DNA from: Allacma fusca
Lineage: Eukaryota; Arthropoda; Collembola; Symphypleona; Sminthuridae
NCBI GenBank assembly: GCA_947179485.1
Contig: OX359250.1
Coordinates: 41,176,600-41,240,599, forward strand
DNA length: 64,000 nucleotides
Reading direction: 5' to 3'
Positions within the stretch are counted from its first letter, which is position 1. Every line of letters begins with the position of its first letter. The notes under the pieces were generated by a model. That model saw only the letters and a program-made list of their open reading frames with translations, was not told the origin of the DNA and ran no database searches. A program made the translations under genes and the position numbers. Of this stretch, positions 21,456-61,099 are shown in pieces.

Positions 21456-22331
<876 letters not shown>

Positions 22332-25300
22332 TCCAAAATTCCTCCCCGACTCACAATTACCCTTCAGAACTCAGAACAGCAACTAAGAGAAAGCCCAATT
22401 AAATCTTCTACCTCAACTTCACAAATTCAAAACATCAAAGTTAACCACACAGGAGTACATCCGTCAACACAATTAGGTTCCTCACAAAAGGTGAAATCCG
22501 CGCAATCCACCCCACACCACACTCACAACTCATTGTCCTTCCGTATATAATAAAACCGCCAAGTTAAACCACATGTACAACTAATTCCCACATTGAACCC
22601 CAGCATTTAACACTTAAATTACAGTCCTCCCCACCAATATCCCAAACAGGTCCATCAACACACATAAAGCAAGGCATTTCATATTTCCCAACATGTCAAT
22701 TAGCAATCACAGAATGACCCGCCATCCATGCCGGTAAAAAAAAAACTTTGAGCCCTCAAAAGTTTAAGGCGTACAATTCGTGTCCAATTAACTCCAATTA
22801 AGCTTGACAACGCTCCAAAAACTAATTACGTCACAAAGACAAACTCCGAATTTCCTTCCCACCTTCAAAAAACGTCGAAGGATCGACCATAATCATTTCA
22901 ATTCAAATTCCCTGATCGTCGTTGAAGCATGCATGGTCTCCCGAGGGAGCCGGAGGAAACATCCATTCCCACTACATGACTGACAACTTGACTTGACCCA
23001 TTAGCCCTGTAATACTTGATGACAATCACACTCCAAAAAAATTATAGTACCATATATGAATGGTACATATATAGGGAACCGAATTGATAAGCCAGTGTAG
23101 TAGCCAGCCATGATGGGATTGAGGGTTCATACATCTATCTATCTGTGTGTGGTGGAGCCCAAAAATACGACGCCGCTTCTCGCGGTCAAACTAATAATTG
23201 ACAAGAGTTAGAAACCGACAAAAATTCTAGAGTTTTACCTGAACTCAAAGGGTCTGCTTAGTCTGAGTGGGAAATTCGGCTCGGAGAGAAGATGACTTGA
23301 AGGGAAGATGCTTGGTAACTTGTGAAGGAACTGCGAGGGATCCGTGAACAAAAATAATGCTTAAACGCATACACACTCACTCAATGAACTGAAGACTATA
23401 ATGAATAAGTAGAAGCACAAGAGCAGAGAGCACTATCTTCTTCCTATTCTTTCACGCACCGCACCACTCACTCCTATGTGAAGTCCACTATTGCCGTCTC
23501 TACACTGAATCAACCGCACGGCTCGTACATTCAGCTACATATCGATAGAGATGTGCGCGCAGCCTATTTCCCAGCTCTTGGCTCTTGCTTGTGTGTTCCA
23601 GGGCCTGCAAAACCTGAACTTGTGTTAGTTCTTTTAGCATCTTATTCCTTCAGGTAATCACCACAAGTGATAGAGTACACGAGCCAGGATGTGTCAGGGG
23701 TTGAGTGTATCAGACTTTCATTTAAGTCTCAGCATGTCCCTTGCCTATTGTATCATAGCGGTTTCTTAAGCAAAGTGCAAAGGATGGGCAGGACCTTGTG
23801 GATATGTTTCTTGTAGCGAAAAATCCTTTATAAAGAGAACTAACAAGAAAAACCATTCTATGATAATTGATCCCTCCTAAATCCTTTCTAAACTGATCCC
23901 TTGTAAATCTCTTATAAACTGACCCCTGTCCCTACTAAACGGATCCCTTGTGACTAGAAATCCCTTTGAAAACAATCCATTGTAACCAGAAATTCTTCAT
24001 AAAGTGACCCCTTGTAACGAGAAATCAATTATAAAACAAACCCTTGAAAGATTAATCCCGTATAAACTGACCCATTGTAACGAGAAATCCCTTATAAAAC
24101 AATCCCTTGTAAAAAGTAATCCCGTATAACTGAGTGTCTGTAAGGAGAAATCCTTTAAAACAACTCCCTTGTAACAAGAAATAAGCCGAATCATTATAAC
24201 GAGAAATCCATCGTGTTAAAACAATATTTTACTTGATTAAGAATGCTACTCACTTATTAGTGTGCTTAGTTTTTTGAAACAGAAATAACAAGATTCCAGT
24301 TTGTTCTTATTAGAGTACACTCTCGCTACAAGATACTCCGTTGCATTTATTTAAAAAAAAAAGACATTCCTAGACAATTTAGACGCAAATGGAATTACGC
24401 AAATCTTATTTTTCCTCTTCAAAAGAGGATTTTGACTTAGGAGGGGTGTAGATGGTTTCAGAGGCACTCTTATATAAAGAGTGCTCTGACTAATATGCTC
24501 TGGGTGTGCTATTGAATAATGTAATAGTAAAATATTTATTTTGTTACATCCTATAGCTTTTAGATTGAAGCAGTAATAATTATTTCAGGATTTTATTCTA
24601 TTTTGAAGGTAGGCATTAGGGAAACTGCAGCATTGCCACCCAACTCCTAAATCTGGATATCACAGGGATGCTGTTTTTTGTACCCTAGGGCAAGGTAGTG
24701 ATAAACGACAATCTCACTCACTCCAAGAAAAACTTATTTCATAACTTGCATTTATTTAGTAGAAAGACCTCGCAGCACCAGAGGAGCTAAAACACTTCAT
24801 TTAAAATTTTGTGTGACGCAAGCCTTGGTGTGACACTGGATCTTTATTTCTTATCATCCCTCGGTTTCATGGTCAGTCTAGGACTAGTGAGCACTGAGTT
24901 GCGTTTTATAACTGGAACTGAAAAACTATCGAACTAAACATGCTATAAGTAAGTACTTACCTATAGATAGCTCCATGTTTACTAAGTCCCTCTTGCTACA
25001 GTAAATGGTAGTTTGGTGTTTGGTCTGGCGGAGTTCTGGGCTTCTTAGCTGAAAGCTCCTAATTTGCGTTCGAAGGAAGAAAGTTGATGCAGATCGCTGT
25101 CATGCTGATCATGTCCACGTTGTAGATTTCGTCATTCTTTTTTTTACAGGAATTTATGCACGTATACATACTTGAAGCTTATTATTAAAAATAAGGTAAA
25201 GCAAACAGAAAATACGTACTTTTGATACTGATAACACTGCACTTTTACAATATAAAGCGAACACTTGACGCCATTTACGAGTGGTAACAGTATAGCAACT

Positions 25301-29569: not shown

Positions 29570-29897
29570 CAGAGCTGTCCAAAATACATGCTCACCAAAT
29601 ACAAATTACAAAATACAAAATACATTCTTCCGTCGTCGAAAATACAAACCACAAAATACAAAATACATTCTTCCGGCGTCGAAAATACAAACTACAAAAT
29701 ACAAAATACATACTCAAAACGTAGAAAATACAAACTACAAAATACTAAATACATTCTTCAGGCGACGAAAATACAAACTACAAAATACAAAATACATACC
29801 TAGCCACGAAAATACAAAATACAAAATACAAAAATGTATTTGAAAAACGTATTTGAAGTACATGTATTTAAAATACCATGTATTTTGGACAGCTCTG
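29570..29897. mobile_element. 328-bp hAT-type MITE with internal tandem repeats
   Basis: A perfect 21-bp terminal inverted repeat begins CAGAGCTGTCCAAAATAC (left 29570-29590, right 29877-29897). Identical 8-bp duplications ctaataat flank it (29562-29569 and 29898-29905). The interior is almost wholly a tandem array (about 29597-29830) of five full units and a partial one, each 42-43 bp and built from AAATACAAA strings plus a CTTCCGGCGTCG-type spacer. The perfect ends suggest recent movement. Confidence 0.9.
29597..29830. repeat. Tandem array inside the MITE, 42-43 bp unit
   Basis: Units begin near 29597, 29639, 29681, 29725, 29768 and (partial) 29808. Each has the form AAATACAAACTACAAAATAC followed by AAAATACAT and a variable spacer. 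The apparent open frames across it are repeat artefacts. Confidence 0.8.
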
Positions 29898-41792: not shown

Positions 41793-43517
41793 ATGATATC
41801 TTCGTTAGAATCTTTTTCAAGAAAGGGACGAAGCTTGTAAGTGGAATTTGAAGTTGGGGTTTTTTTTTTTAAATAGTAAGTTTCTAAAGGATTCACATTA
41901 TTTTTTTTTTTTAGAAAAGAGATTGAAGGGAATCCGGAGTTGTACCCACAATTGGAAGAAGAAGAGAGCCAAAGAGGGATTACTAGAATAGAAGTTGCAT
42001 CGGCGAAGTCTGTTGGGGAAGAGAATCAATTTGATCTCTGGACAAGTTTCCTAAACGATATAGATATGTTTCGAGTGTCAGGGAAGAGTGCGGCCTTGCC
42101 TCCAAATCCTTTTTATCATCGAGTGAAAGTAACAACTTATGACAAAATCAAGATGGGATTTTGTTGCATTGTCCTTTTACCTATCAGAGCAGTTTTAGTT
42201 GCAATTACACTATCCCTGGCGTGGGCATTTGCATCTCTTGGAACCCTCGGCTTGTCGTTAGAAAAACTATGCTCGGAGCCGCGGCTCTCGAAACCTCGTC
42301 GGATACTTCGATGGATCACGGCTCGAATTTTTGTGAGAGCAGCATTCCTTTTTGCAGGGTTCTACTGGGTGAAGGTTATAGGATCACGGGCAAAAACGAA
42401 AGAGGCTCCGATCATCCTTGTGGTCTCGCATACTTCAATATTCGATTCGCTACCTTTAATTCTCCTCGGAACTCCAACAGTGGTCGCCAAATCGGAGGTT
42501 CATGGGATACCAATTATTGGTAAACTGGTGGATCTCACCCAGCCAATCTACGTTCGACGAGAAAACCCAAGCTCAAGACATATTGCCATCAAAGAGATCG
42601 CCAGACGAGCTCAGTCTACTGTAGAATGGCCTCAAATCATGATCTTTCCAGAAGGAACGTGCACGAATCATACCTGCTTAGCCAAATTCAAGATTGGAGC
42701 ATTTTATCCTGGAGTTCCCATTCAACCTGTGGTAGTTCGTTGGCCCAATCGCTCCGATACGACCACTTGGACCTTCGATGGGATTCCAGCTTGGAAAGTA
42801 TTGTTTTTCACATTTTCTCAGTTCATCAATTATTTTGAAATGGAGTACCTTCCGGTGTATCATCCTGATGAAGATGAGCAAGAAGATCCGAAACTATACG
42901 CTTCAAATATGGAATGTTATTTATCAGAGGTCATGGGGATTCCTGCAACGGACTACGAATATGAACATGGTGGACAGCTAGTTGAAATGAGAAACTCTGA
43001 ATTGCCGAAACGTCTCGCTCTTGTTGAAAAATTACATTCCCAGCTACGAACTCAAATGAGAAGCTCAGAGGTTGAAATTGCAAGGGAAGCTTTAAAGAAA
43101 GAAATGAAATGGAGTGCTGATGCTACTCAGGTCAACCGTCTGTTTGGGTTGGACAAGGAAAACACGGAAGTTCAAAAACTGTTTACAATTTACGACCGTA
43201 ATTATTCTGGCACGATAGACCTTCGAGAGTATTTCACACATGTGTTTCTTCTCAACCCCGGTATCCCCAGGGACAAGATTTCTATGATAATATTTATGTT
43301 GTATGGACAAAACAGACTTTTAGACCGTGACACGCTCTTTAGCGTACTTAAAAACTTGTTCTTTATTTCGGAGAGCAAGGCGGAAGTGATGATAAGGAAG
43401 GCAGAAGCCGAAAAACTCGAGAGGATTGATCTCCCATGTTTTGAGGAGATAATGGGCAAACGTTTGGATTTTGTTAAGTTATTTGCGATGGAAGCCTGTG
43501 GTGAATTAAAAACTTGA
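41793..43517 (+). CDS. Lysophosphatidylcholine acyltransferase (LPCAT1/2-like)
   Basis: Exon 1 (41793-41836, MISSLESFSRKGRS...) splices over a 78-bp intron to 41915-43517, giving 548 residues. It should transfer an acyl chain from acyl-CoA to lysophospholipids at the ER or lipid-droplet surface (Lands cycle). A hydrophobic hairpin lies at about residues 95-130 (CCIVLLPIRAVLVAITLSLA) and a second hydrophobic stretch at about 153-165. The PlsC-type active site HTSIFD is at about 187-192 and the second motif FPEGTCTN at about 259-266. One canonical EF-hand loop (DRNYSGTIDLRE, about 442-453) follows, with EF-like helices to the C terminus, as in LPCAT1 and LPCAT2. There is no C-terminal KKxx signal (it ends GELKT). 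The near-absence of introns contrasts with its neighbours. LPCAT1 versus LPCAT2 cannot be separated by eye. Confidence 0.9.
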
Positions 43518-52963: not shown

Positions 52964-55900
52964 ATGCAACCAACTAAGCCGATTGACATAATTACACTTG
53001 ACTCAGCCCAGTCGGTTGATGAGGATGTGATTTGCGGAAGAGAGGAACCGGTAGTCATTAGAGGATTTAATCTTGGAGATTGCCTCACCAAGTGGACCCC
53101 GGAGTACCTGAGAGCTAAAGGATCCGACAAACTTGTGAAAGTTCACCGAAGCCCTTATAAAAGATTGGACTTCCGTAGGAAAAATTTTGCGTATGAAACA
53201 GTGACGTTCTCGGACCTGGTGAAGCATTGTAGCGAGGGATCCGAGAGCAAGGACTACTGGTACTTGCGCTCTTTGGGGGAAGATCCAAGGTGACAATTAA
53301 GAAACTTATGTTGGACTTGAGTCGAGAGGCCTTCTCCGTTTATTCTTGTTGTTGTGATTTATAATATGCTAAGTTACTGTTTCTAAATGTTCTGCAAGCT
53401 CTAACCGTTTACTTTTATTTTTAAAATATCTAGGGGGAAAGACGTATCGGACCTTGAAAAACACTTCCCGGATCTGTTTGCTGATATTTGTATTCCTAAG
53501 GTTTTCGATGAAGAGTTGTTCTTCTCGTCTGTCTTCCGAATAACATCACCGGGTTTACAACTTTGGACGCACTACGATACGTGTCACAATATTCTAATTC
53601 AAGTGCGCGGTCGAAAGCGGGTTGTGTTTTATCCTCCGTCGGAAGCCCTCAATTTGTATCTGGACGGGGACAAGTCTGAAGTTTTGGACATCGACAGTCC
53701 TGATTTAGAAGCGTTTCCTAAATTCGCCTTAGCTACTCGTTATGAAACGTTTCTAGATGAAGGGGATATTGTTTTCATTCCGGCACTGTGGTTCCACAAT
53801 ATAACGGCCTTGGATTTTAGCATATCTGTTAATGTGTTTTGGAAGAACCTTCCACTGGACTTGTATGACAAGAAGGACACTTACGGAAATAAAGATTTCA
53901 TACCTGCTCAGTTGGTAAGTTGGAAAACATAAAGAAGTAGTTTTAATTATTTATAGGGCTTGAGTTAATAATGTACCTATTTGCATCAGACATGAAAAGT
54001 TCGGTTTGGATAATCTGTCTTTTCATTTCTTTCATACAATGTATAAATATATATATGGTTCTAGTGTCGACCAATTCATACTTACCAGAATCCACGGTTG
54101 CATTGTAACACTCTCGTCTCAAATAAGTTACCCTTCATTTCTCACTAAGGAGTTTCAAAACTTATGGAGCGTGAAGTGGATCCATGAACCGTGTTACTGT
54201 TTCTGTGTTTCTTAAACATAGTATATTCGTAGTTAAATGTGGATTCAACTGATGAGATGACAGATGTTAAATTTTGTAATTGTAAACAATGAATTACTAT
54301 GAAAACTTTGTTTTAATACGTCGGTATTGCAGAGCACCATACATTATGTAGTTTATTCATGACGCGTTTAACAGGGCCGAATTCAGGTATACTAATAAGT
54401 TTTAATGGTTCCTTCCGTAAAGTAAGTTACCACTACTACCGTTTGTATTTATTTATTTTATGTGTAGATATGTATGGTGCGTAGCTTTCGCTCTGAATGG
54501 TATTTGATGCCATAAATTACGTGTTAAGTCAATCGCTGTTAAATCAAGAAATGAAATCTCCCCATTTAACATACAGTTACGCCTTTTTGGTTAGTAAATG
54601 AAAGCCGTTCTTATTGTTAACGACACTTACAAATATTACTTATTGTCTGTCAGCCTCGCGACTACGGATGAAAAAGTGCAAAGGATTTTAAGGCTTCAAA
54701 ATATCCAAATGTAATCTTGATTCCTTTGACAGATTGTGGAAACATCGTATTCAAAGCTATGTTCGTGTATGTAAATAGTTTGTTCCGGTTGGTCTCTTGT
54801 CAGAGTGTGAAGATTGCTACATATACAAAGTGTGTGAGATTGTCACCTTTGCGAATTATTTCGTAATGGGGTCGTCCACCGTATCAACTAAAACCCATAC
54901 ATTTCTGCAATGAACCTGTCGTGTCATATACATTAGAGATAATGGCATGTGTCGAGTGTATAATTGGGTTACGTTCAGAGGCTGTTGGGGGTTATTGCTT
55001 TGTAATCCTTGTTTTTCCATGCATTGGTTGTCCTTTTAGAAAATTCTTCATGGAAGGGAGTTTTGTTTCATTTTTACATTAAAAATGTAGTAATTAACTC
55101 TTAATCTGCCAGCGAGAAAAGATTTTTTCGCATTGAGGTTATAAATACTTACGGAACTTCAGAATGCCAAGTTTAGTTGCATTTTTTGTGTCTTCACGTG
55201 TGGACTGAAAGTGTACATTTATGTTAACCAAAATTGAATAAAAATAAATTCATCACTTCAAGGAAGCTCAAAAATGAAGGTTCAAAGCCTTTTATTCCTC
55301 ACTCCGATATTTCTTCTGATGTACTTGTCTCAATTGGTGAGTGTTTCAACAATATTTCAATAATGTTTGTTTGACTACGGTTTTTACAATATATTTCGAA
55401 TACTGGAAGTAAATTACCTTTGTCGTTTATTTATAGCCCTTCACGACGGGACAGTTTTTGTTGCCAGCAAGAGTGCCAGACAATAGTACTTGTTCTGGTA
55501 TCACCTCTAATTTGTTCAAACGACAACTTCGAAGAATCTCGACATGCACCCGTCAGCTAAATCTCAAAGGAGGTCACCACGTAAGCATGTTTTATTGAAA
55601 TGAGTAAAGCTGTGTCGTATAATTGATTGCTGGTTTATTTATTTATTTTTACTTACAGTGTGTTTTGAAGTGCGCGATGATCATGGAAGGAGTGGTTTGT
55701 TTGATTTAAAGACTTTGTTGCCTACTTTAACCGTTTCTTGAAAAGCTGTAACATGGGGAAATTTGTAATGAAATACATGTTGGTAATTTTAGCTCTCAAA
55801 GGAAGGTAAAATTGACCAAAAACTCTTGGACCAATTCGTAGACAGATTCCCTGACTTTTTACAACAAAGAGTTATTCAGTATATTGAACGCTGTCGTGTT

Positions 55901-56957
55901 GTTGCAGGTTAGGCATTTTTTGGTGTCACGCATGCTTTCGTAACAATTTACTCAATAAAACAATGTTGTATAACTATTCCTCTTTACAGCAGGAAAACTT
56001 GACCACAAAGAAAAGTCTTGTAAAAGCTACGAGCCTCTTTCTCGCTGTATTACGGATGCCGTTTTCAACGTGAGTATTGAACAATGTGAATACTGCTGAA
56101 ATTTGATTTGTACCTCAATTATTCATTTTTGCATGTTGCTCAATTGCATTTATTTCCAGCTCTGTGGTCCGACACCATTTTAAATCTGGCTATGAAGCAG
56201 CTCTGAAGACAAGCAACGAGCTAATTACATTATCTTGGTGTAATCAATCTCCTTAGTTTTATATACCCAGTATTTCTCAGGACACCTTTACGATTTCCTT
56301 CAGAACAGCTTCACACAAAACTTGTGAACCGAGATCATTTTTGTACAAAACTATAAATTTTGTCTTTAGATATGCATACCCTTAAGTCTAATAATTGCAC
56401 ATCTGAAGCGAATTATTAAATATTGTTTGAAGCTTACTTGATGTTTTTTTTTTCAAGATAGAAAACTTATAATCTTAGTAGTCGGAAAATTTGACTGGGA
56501 GTTGAATAAAACCTTTATTGTAACGATTTTTAACAGCGAAATGTTTTATTGGCGAAGTCATACTTTCATATATGTACCAAAATAAATCACAGTTTACTTA
56601 CGACGGATATGATTTGTAAGCAAGAGGATATAAGTAGAGAATAAGATTTAAATGGCATAGCTATATTTATACGAATAAAGTATACTTGCGGTTAGTGTAC
56701 GTCAAATTAGCAAAAATGAATTTTTCGAGAGAAGAGCTAAATGTTTAGTACGTTTTGTTTATTTTCTTACGTGTATTTTATTTTTTTTATTACAGGGGTT
56801 CAGAACGCTTGATAAAGCTGCAGGGCAGCTAAAAAATTTACCTCCAACTTATGAAGATTTCTACTTACGCCGGATGATAATATCCTTAGAGAACCGTCTT
56901 TCGAAAATTTCTGCTTTAGCTCCACGAGACAATAACGTCCACAATGAACAAGACTAA
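52964..56957 (+). CDS. TYW5: tRNA wybutosine-synthesizing protein 5 (JmjC hydroxylase)
   Basis: Exons 52964-53289, 53434-53914 and 56796-56957 give 322 residues (human TYW5 is 315). TYW5 is a 2-oxoglutarate/Fe(II) JmjC oxygenase that hydroxylates the wybutosine side chain next to the tRNA-Phe anticodon. The iron ligands are visible as HYD (His155, Asp157) and the distal His230 in [13 protein letters not shown]. Family blocks include [20 protein letters not shown] and [11 protein letters not shown]. The last exon ([13 protein letters not shown]) matches the conserved TYW5 C-terminal helix, which proves that the gene continues across the 2.9-kb intron 53915-56795. That intron contains a complete second gene on the same strand. 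The stop is only 49 bp upstream of the MCM9 start codon, and the nearest AATAAA is inside MCM9 exon 1. Confidence 0.92.
53915..55273 (+). other. 5' part of TYW5 intron 2, upstream of the nested gene
   Basis: About 1.36 kb of AT-rich intron that must also hold the promoter of the nested OBP-like gene. No exon, repeat or transposon end was recognised. Confidence 0.4.
55274..56183 (+). CDS. Odorant-binding-protein-like secreted protein nested in TYW5
   Basis: Six small exons (55274-55336, 55437-55580, 55659-55694, 55793-55907, 55990-56069, 56160-56183) sum to 462 nt, 153 residues. A signal peptide starts the protein ([20 protein letters not shown]). Cysteines at 40, 70, 74, 115, 130 and 139 give C-x29-C-x3-C-x40-C-x14-C-x8-C. 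This lies inside the classic insect OBP (PBP/GOBP) pattern, and [12 protein letters not shown] falls where OBPs carry their G-K-I-D turn. Two extra cysteines (58 and 148) could form a fourth disulphide. Insect OBPs carry hydrophobic ligands in chemosensory lymph or other fluids. The ligand here is unknown. The gene lies entirely inside TYW5 intron 2 on the same strand. Exon 5 has tandem AG acceptors 3 nt apart. A poly(A) signal lies at 56505. Spacing evidence is strong; no sequence search was possible. Confidence 0.8.
56184..56795 (+). other. 3' part of TYW5 intron 2
   Basis: About 600 bp holding the likely 3'-UTR of the OBP-like gene (AATAAA at 56505 and 56581) before the TYW5 exon 3 acceptor TTACAG (56795). 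Confidence 0.45.
56505..56510 (+). terminator. Poly(A) signal of the OBP-like gene
   Basis: AATAAA about 320 nt after the stop codon, with another at 56581. It lies within a TYW5 intron, so the host transcript must splice past it. Confidence 0.5.
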
Positions 56958-57006
56958 TTTAAATAATGATAGTTTCATCTAACCCAAAGGGTTTATTAAG
57001 TCAGCC

Positions 57007-61099
<4,093 letters not shown>

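Follow-up and report, generated by a model that had tools for sequence, protein, structure and literature searches.

An Odorant-Binding Protein-Like Gene Within the Last Intron of TYW5 in the Globular Springtail Allacma fusca

Introduction

The six conserved cysteines of insect odorant-binding proteins (OBPs) are spaced as C-x25-30-C-x3-C-x36-42-C-x8-14-C-x8-C, as quoted in an earlier note on the DNA analyzed here, and insect OBPs are usually acidic. The spacing given in PMC8067015 has three residues between C2 and C3 and eight between C5 and C6. In this study, a 64,000-nucleotide stretch of Allacma fusca (contig OX359250.1, positions 41,176,600 to 41,240,599 of the forward strand; hereafter the window) was analyzed with respect to a six-exon OBP-like gene lying in the last intron of TYW5. 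Allacma fusca is a globular springtail (Collembola, Symphypleona, Sminthuridae) for which a chromosome-level assembly has been published (PMC10427803).

Several groups of proteins are close enough to serve for comparison. In 2014, Pelosi and colleagues published OBP sequences of two springtails, Folsomia candida and Orchesella cincta, and concluded that OBPs and hexapods are of equal age; the number of F. candida OBPs in that paper is five according to the text and four according to the table (PMC4145409). The term plus-C is loosely used for OBPs with more than six cysteines (PMC4145409, PMC5054612). Outside the insects, chelicerates and myriapods possess 'OBP-like' proteins such as VdesOBP1 of Varroa, in which the six cysteines pair as C1-C6, C2-C3, and C4-C5 (PMC8222343). 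A search of the springtail Holacanthella for odorant receptors and Orco was reported to find neither (PMC5644144), and thus each well-delimited springtail OBP is of help in asking which role the carriers had before the insect receptor system existed. In the accessible text of a paper on the dipluran Campodea, neither 'OBP' nor 'odorant-binding' occurs (PMC6938034).

Gene Structure and Cysteine Pattern

The nested gene consisted of six exons on the forward strand between positions 55274 and 56183 of the window, with all joins in frame, and encoded a protein of 151-153 residues (Table 1). Two joins were ambiguous by one codon each, namely the exon 3 donor (55694 or 55691, with or without a valine) and the exon 5 acceptor (55990 or 55993, two alanines or one), and all four resulting splice versions remained in frame. 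The N-terminus was hydrophobic and, by eye, resembled a signal peptide, with a mean hydropathy of 1.33 over residues 4-20.

The 153-residue version contained cysteines at residues 40, 58, 70, 74, 115, 130, 139, and 148. Six of these were spaced as C-x29-C-x3-C-x40-C-x14-C-x8-C, and the intervals of 29, 3, 40, 14, and 8 residues all lay within the insect pattern; the other splice versions gave 39 and 13 in place of 40 and 14, which were still within the insect range. The two extra cysteines were Cys58, between C1 and C2, and Cys148, eight residues past C6. When eight cysteines were placed at random in residues 27-153, the six-cysteine spacing arose in 112 of 2,000,000 placements. The earlier note had described six in-frame exons, this spacing, and two additional cysteines, and each of these was borne out by the joined translation, which reached 153 residues with the splice choice of that note.

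Similarity to the OBP Family

The earlier note had proposed the Pfam profile PBP_GOBP (PF01395) as a check on its assignment of the gene to the OBP family. With the exon joins of the note (153 residues) the protein scored 22.9 bits (E = 9.9e-5), above the cut-off of 22, and the 152-residue version with the valine scored 23.2 bits (E = 7.7e-5). The match spanned profile positions 43-110 of 113, which correspond to the part from C2 to C6, and C1 was assigned by spacing alone. PBP_GOBP was the sole Pfam family over its cut-off; Peptidase_A25 was also listed, at 10-13 bits versus 27.8, and the NCBIfam scan of the protein returned no family. None of nine shuffles in which residues 1-27 and every cysteine were held fixed matched PBP_GOBP (E <= 10; the HMMER filters drop most matches above approximately 0.1), indicating that the match rests on more than the cysteine spacing. 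A different family, Toddler, was hit by one shuffle, far under its cut-off.

In the PDB search with the valine version, odorant-binding proteins accounted for 8 of the 11 distinct sequences found at E <= 10. These were 8bxu (E = 0.019) and seven variants of LUSH (e.g., 1oof; E = 0.13-0.28), which we take to be insect proteins, and the region from C2 to C6 was aligned in both the 8bxu and the LUSH alignments. The remaining three sequences were a C-type lectin domain protein, a sigma factor, and 'erythrocyte membrane protein 1'. Together, the Pfam score and the predominance of odorant-binding proteins among the weak PDB matches support the assignment made in the earlier note. The nested gene is probably real and separately transcribed, a divergent representative of the insect OBP (PBP_GOBP) family on the strand of its host and within the last TYW5 intron.

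Alternatively, an OBP-like spacing could have arisen by convergence in a helical, cysteine-rich secreted protein from some other family, which would agree with the low Pfam score, the lack of any significant single homolog, the basic isoelectric point (pI), and the two extra cysteines. However, since no cysteine-preserving shuffle matched PBP_GOBP, the residues other than cysteine carry the match, and no other Pfam family exceeded its cut-off; convergence is therefore unlikely.

The protein resembles insect classical OBPs (PF01395; LUSH and the 8bxu OBP) in its secreted-looking start and its length, in the exact C2-x3-C3 and C5-x8-C6 intervals with the remaining three intervals inside the quoted range, and in a C2-C6 region that can be aligned. 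It differs from them in its two extra cysteines, its basic pI, a C1 that falls outside the profile match, and a very low similarity. The OBPs of F. candida and O. cincta, springtails of another order than Symphypleona, come from the same animal class and bear the same family name. With eight cysteines, the protein falls under the loose plus-C usage, and like plus-C OBPs it has one of its supernumerary cysteines past C6. It departs from that group in the placement of Cys58 between C1 and C2, in a C5-C6 interval of eight residues, and in a Gly-Pro that follows its last cysteine, and its extra cysteines occupy other positions than those described for dipteran plus-C OBPs (PMC5054612).

The 'OBP-like' proteins of chelicerates and myriapods are small six-cysteine helical carriers from outside the insects, as the protein studied here would be, but they differ from it in cysteine positions and in the expected pairing. 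That the gene encodes a protein of their type rather than of the insect type would suit a non-insect arthropod host, and six cysteines are found in the Varroa proteins too (PMC8222343). Nevertheless, the spacing fits the insect pattern. Moreover, LUSH and other OBPs were listed in the PDB search to E = 10, whereas the Varroa structures 7NYJ and 7NZA were not among the listed sequences (their presence in the searched copy was unchecked). A chelicerate or myriapod type is accordingly very unlikely.

Coding Potential and Splice Sites

The training set of the codon-usage score comprised four genes in the window with known relatives, TYW5, MCM9, LPCAT, and ATAD1. The MCM9 model begins with 16 bases of intron (57145-57160) and also ends in a few, and the PDB match of ATAD1, an outer mitochondrial transmembrane helix translocase (E = 5.2e-110, residues 50-328), spanned the only join of this gene. 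The OBP frame scored 0.102 bits per codon, compared with 0.041-0.178 for the four training genes when each was left out. In the non-coding control, 5000 assemblies were made from open pieces matched in length, and even the highest score among them (0.094) fell short of the OBP score. The other two frames of the joined exons scored -0.043 and 0.032 and contained 6 and 8 stops.

Splice sites were scored with a matrix built from 12 introns of TYW5, MCM9, and ATAD1, in which donors ranged from 5.0 to 9.3 and acceptors from 3.8 to 13.4. Four of the six candidate donors (exons 1, 2, 4, and 5) and four of the six candidate acceptors (exons 2, 3, and 5, the last with both candidates) were within these ranges, whereas both candidates for the exon 3 donor and the acceptors of exons 4 and 6 fell below them (Table 1). 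Compared with non-coding GT and AG sites, 5 of the 12 candidates (donors 55694 and 55691; acceptors 55437, 55793, and 56160) scored under the 90th percentile (4.0 and 4.1, respectively). The weak exon 3 donor and exon 4 acceptor would agree with an OBP pseudogene or a dead relic left in the intron. However, the six exons carry neither a stop nor a frameshift, the six-cysteine pattern is intact, and the coding bias is like that of the neighboring genes, all of which make a relic improbable.

Several results weigh against a functional OBP gene as modeled here. The PBP_GOBP score tops its cut-off by only about 1 bit and drops to 18.4-18.8 bits, under the cut-off, when the valine is omitted (donor 55691), and the match includes no profile similarity around C1. 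The PDB matches are individually non-significant, the best having an E of 0.019, and seven of the eight OBP matches represent one protein, LUSH. When the valine-less 151-residue version was compared with the PDB, only two of five matches were OBPs and the top match was a lectin (E = 0.17). A search of 5.8 billion proteins with this valine-less version only, which was length-limited and needs shared words, gave 11 candidates, none of them at E <= 10. The mature protein is basic, with a computed pI of 9.26, and exon 1 by itself scored -1.1 bits over 21 codons. The weakest join is intron 3 (55695-55792), where a poor donor meets a poor acceptor, and the Pfam score above the cut-off hangs on this intron. 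The PDB alignment to odorant-binding proteins crosses the same join without a gap.

Two features of the exons concern possible splice variants. The tandem acceptor CAGCAG at 55990-55992 would yield two isoforms that differ by one alanine between C4 and C5. Micro-exon 3 (55659-55694) consists of whole codons and contains both C2 and C3, and its skipping would keep the frame and remove both cysteines.

Location in the Host Gene

The JmjC protein TYW5 matched PDB entry 3al5 (C2orf60, presumably human TYW5) with an E of 9e-95 over residues 26-303, and the alignment was collinear across the exon 2-3 join at residue 269. Since the homology is unbroken over this join, positions 53915-56795 are a TYW5 intron, in which the OBP gene is nested on the same strand. 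The location stated in the earlier note, the last TYW5 intron on the same strand, was confirmed in this way.

The six exons might instead be alternative exons of TYW5 that give a chimeric or truncated TYW5 and no separate gene. Host and nested exons share one strand, and since phase 0 is found both at the end of TYW5 exon 2 and at the start of OBP exons 2-4, splicing from the one into the others would preserve the frame. Against this, the exons have their own ATG with a hydrophobic start and their own stop, they are flanked by a candidate TATA box and a candidate AATAAA signal, and the family matched is one of stand-alone secreted proteins; alternative TYW5 exons thus appear very unlikely. TATAAA occurs three times in 53901-56800, and further poly(A)-type hexamers downstream of the OBP stop are AATAAA at 56581 and 56674 and ATTAAA at 56415.

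The earlier note had left it open whether the gene settled or arose in the intron. Birth inside the intron was rejected, because the gene resembles an old family, and this similarity favors a moved or retained member over birth in place.

A second OBP gene was sought in the window by tblastn with the OBP protein, and nothing else was found below E = 0.01; the best hit, at 0.045, ran across stop codons. Inspection by eye of the listed CxxxC-type frames of the window gave no further convincing OBP exon.

Proposed Function and Implications

From what is known of the family, we infer a course that leads from promoter and transcription through secretion, folding, and disulfide formation to ligand binding. 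Transcription would be driven by the gene's own TATA-type promoter within the TYW5 intron, and the transcript would be spliced from the six exons. The protein would be secreted and cleaved near residue 26, and would fold into a small helical, disulfide-locked carrier whose internal pocket binds hydrophobic ligands. The classical bridges C1-C3, C2-C5, and C4-C6 would correspond to Cys40-Cys74, Cys70-Cys130, and Cys115-Cys139. A fourth bridge, Cys58-Cys148, which we infer from the presence of the two extra cysteines, would anchor the C-terminal tail at the first helical region. Given the negative search for odorant receptors in a springtail genome, a part in olfaction would require ionotropic or gustatory receptors, or the ligands would be carried outside olfaction. 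The protein, if sensory, probably works with receptors other than odorant receptors.

The earlier note had suggested that the gene would bear on the origin of the OBP family if the organism were a non-insect hexapod. The organism is indeed the springtail Allacma fusca, as seen from the identity of MCM9 described below, but the suggestion is weakened by the springtail OBPs reported in 2014 (PMC4145409). As these have been known since then, the nested gene adds a member to the family and leaves its origin unmoved. It is a new springtail member of an already known OBP family, and the accepted picture is unchanged by this gene alone. Its value lies in being a globular-springtail candidate whose cysteine set is unusual and whose fixed address, the last TYW5 intron, can be compared across springtail genomes.

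More speculatively, the gene could represent an eight-cysteine springtail type of OBP, in which the fourth bridge would fasten the tail at the first helical region. Acting in an animal that lacks odorant receptors, it could so reveal a role of OBPs before insect olfaction; we consider this unlikely. If the nesting is conserved, that ancient arrangement would include the position inside a tRNA-modification gene. No literature on an OBP gene nested in the intron of a host gene was found, which is no proof of such a case being unpublished.

Feature Coordinates and Neighboring Genes

Table 1. Positions in the window of the exons and candidate signals of the OBP-like gene and of the parts of its host gene TYW5.
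Feature	Position	Strand	Basis or remarks
OBP exon 1	55274..55336	+	Hydrophobic, signal-peptide-like N-terminus; donor score 7.7; exon alone slightly negative in codon score
OBP exon 2	55437..55580	+	C1 (Cys40, by spacing) and extra Cys58; acceptor 3.9, donor 5.1
OBP exon 3 (36-base micro-exon)	55659..55694 (or to 55691)	+	C2-x3-C3 (CVLKC); acceptor 9.3; donor 2.4 (55694) or -0.5 (55691)
OBP exon 4	55793..55907	+	LSKEGKID... through C4 (Cys115); acceptor 0.4, donor 5.3
OBP exon 5	55990..56069 (or from 55993)	+	C5 and C6 (Cys130, Cys139); tandem acceptor 4.8 and 10.0; donor 8.2
OBP exon 6	56160..56183	+	Extra Cys148 and stop codon; acceptor 3.0
TATAAAT box, candidate promoter of the nested gene	55140..55146	+	134 bases upstream of ATG; consensus match only
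Candidate poly(A) signal (AATAAA) of the nested gene	56505..56510	+	Inside the host intron, 3' of the stop; consensus match only
TYW5 exon 1 (host gene)	52964..53289	+	Homology
TYW5 exon 2 (host gene)	53434..53914	+	Homology
TYW5 intron 2 (last; 2881 bases), contains the OBP gene	53915..56795	+	Protein homology continues over the join
TYW5 exon 3 (host gene)	56796..56957	+	Homology

Just downstream of TYW5 lies MCM9, which, as far as it was assembled, was identical at 551 of 551 positions to residues 1-551 of the 722-residue MCM9 of Allacma fusca; the next match listed was from the springtail Orchesella dallaii at 55%. The MCM9 start (57007) is only 49 bases past the TYW5 stop on the same strand, and the sole AATAAA in 56957-57200, at 57034, falls within the first MCM9 coding exon. 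TYW5 and MCM9 may therefore have overlapping transcription units or share a transcript.

A long, uninterrupted LPCAT-like frame was found at 41880-43514. Of the 396 relatives found, 120 were listed; the best of these, an unnamed protein from a JGI metagenome, stood at 67% over 387 residues, and the other 119 were at 32-44%; no name among these 120 showed Allacma, the names being shortened. The absence of the OBP-like protein from protein databases was considered as a sign of novelty and rejected, since no Allacma name appeared among the listed LPCAT matches either, so that proteins of Allacma may be missing from these databases, and since the search was restricted in length and to sequences with shared words.

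A bacterial promoter model, which carries no meaning for the present DNA, found none in the window; a megablast comparison with phages, irrelevant here, gave no match. Tandem arrays with 43-base and 32/63-base units were observed at 29597-29833 and 23936-24182, and minus-strand frames at 21459-22370 had the look, by eye, of an HP1-type chromodomain protein.

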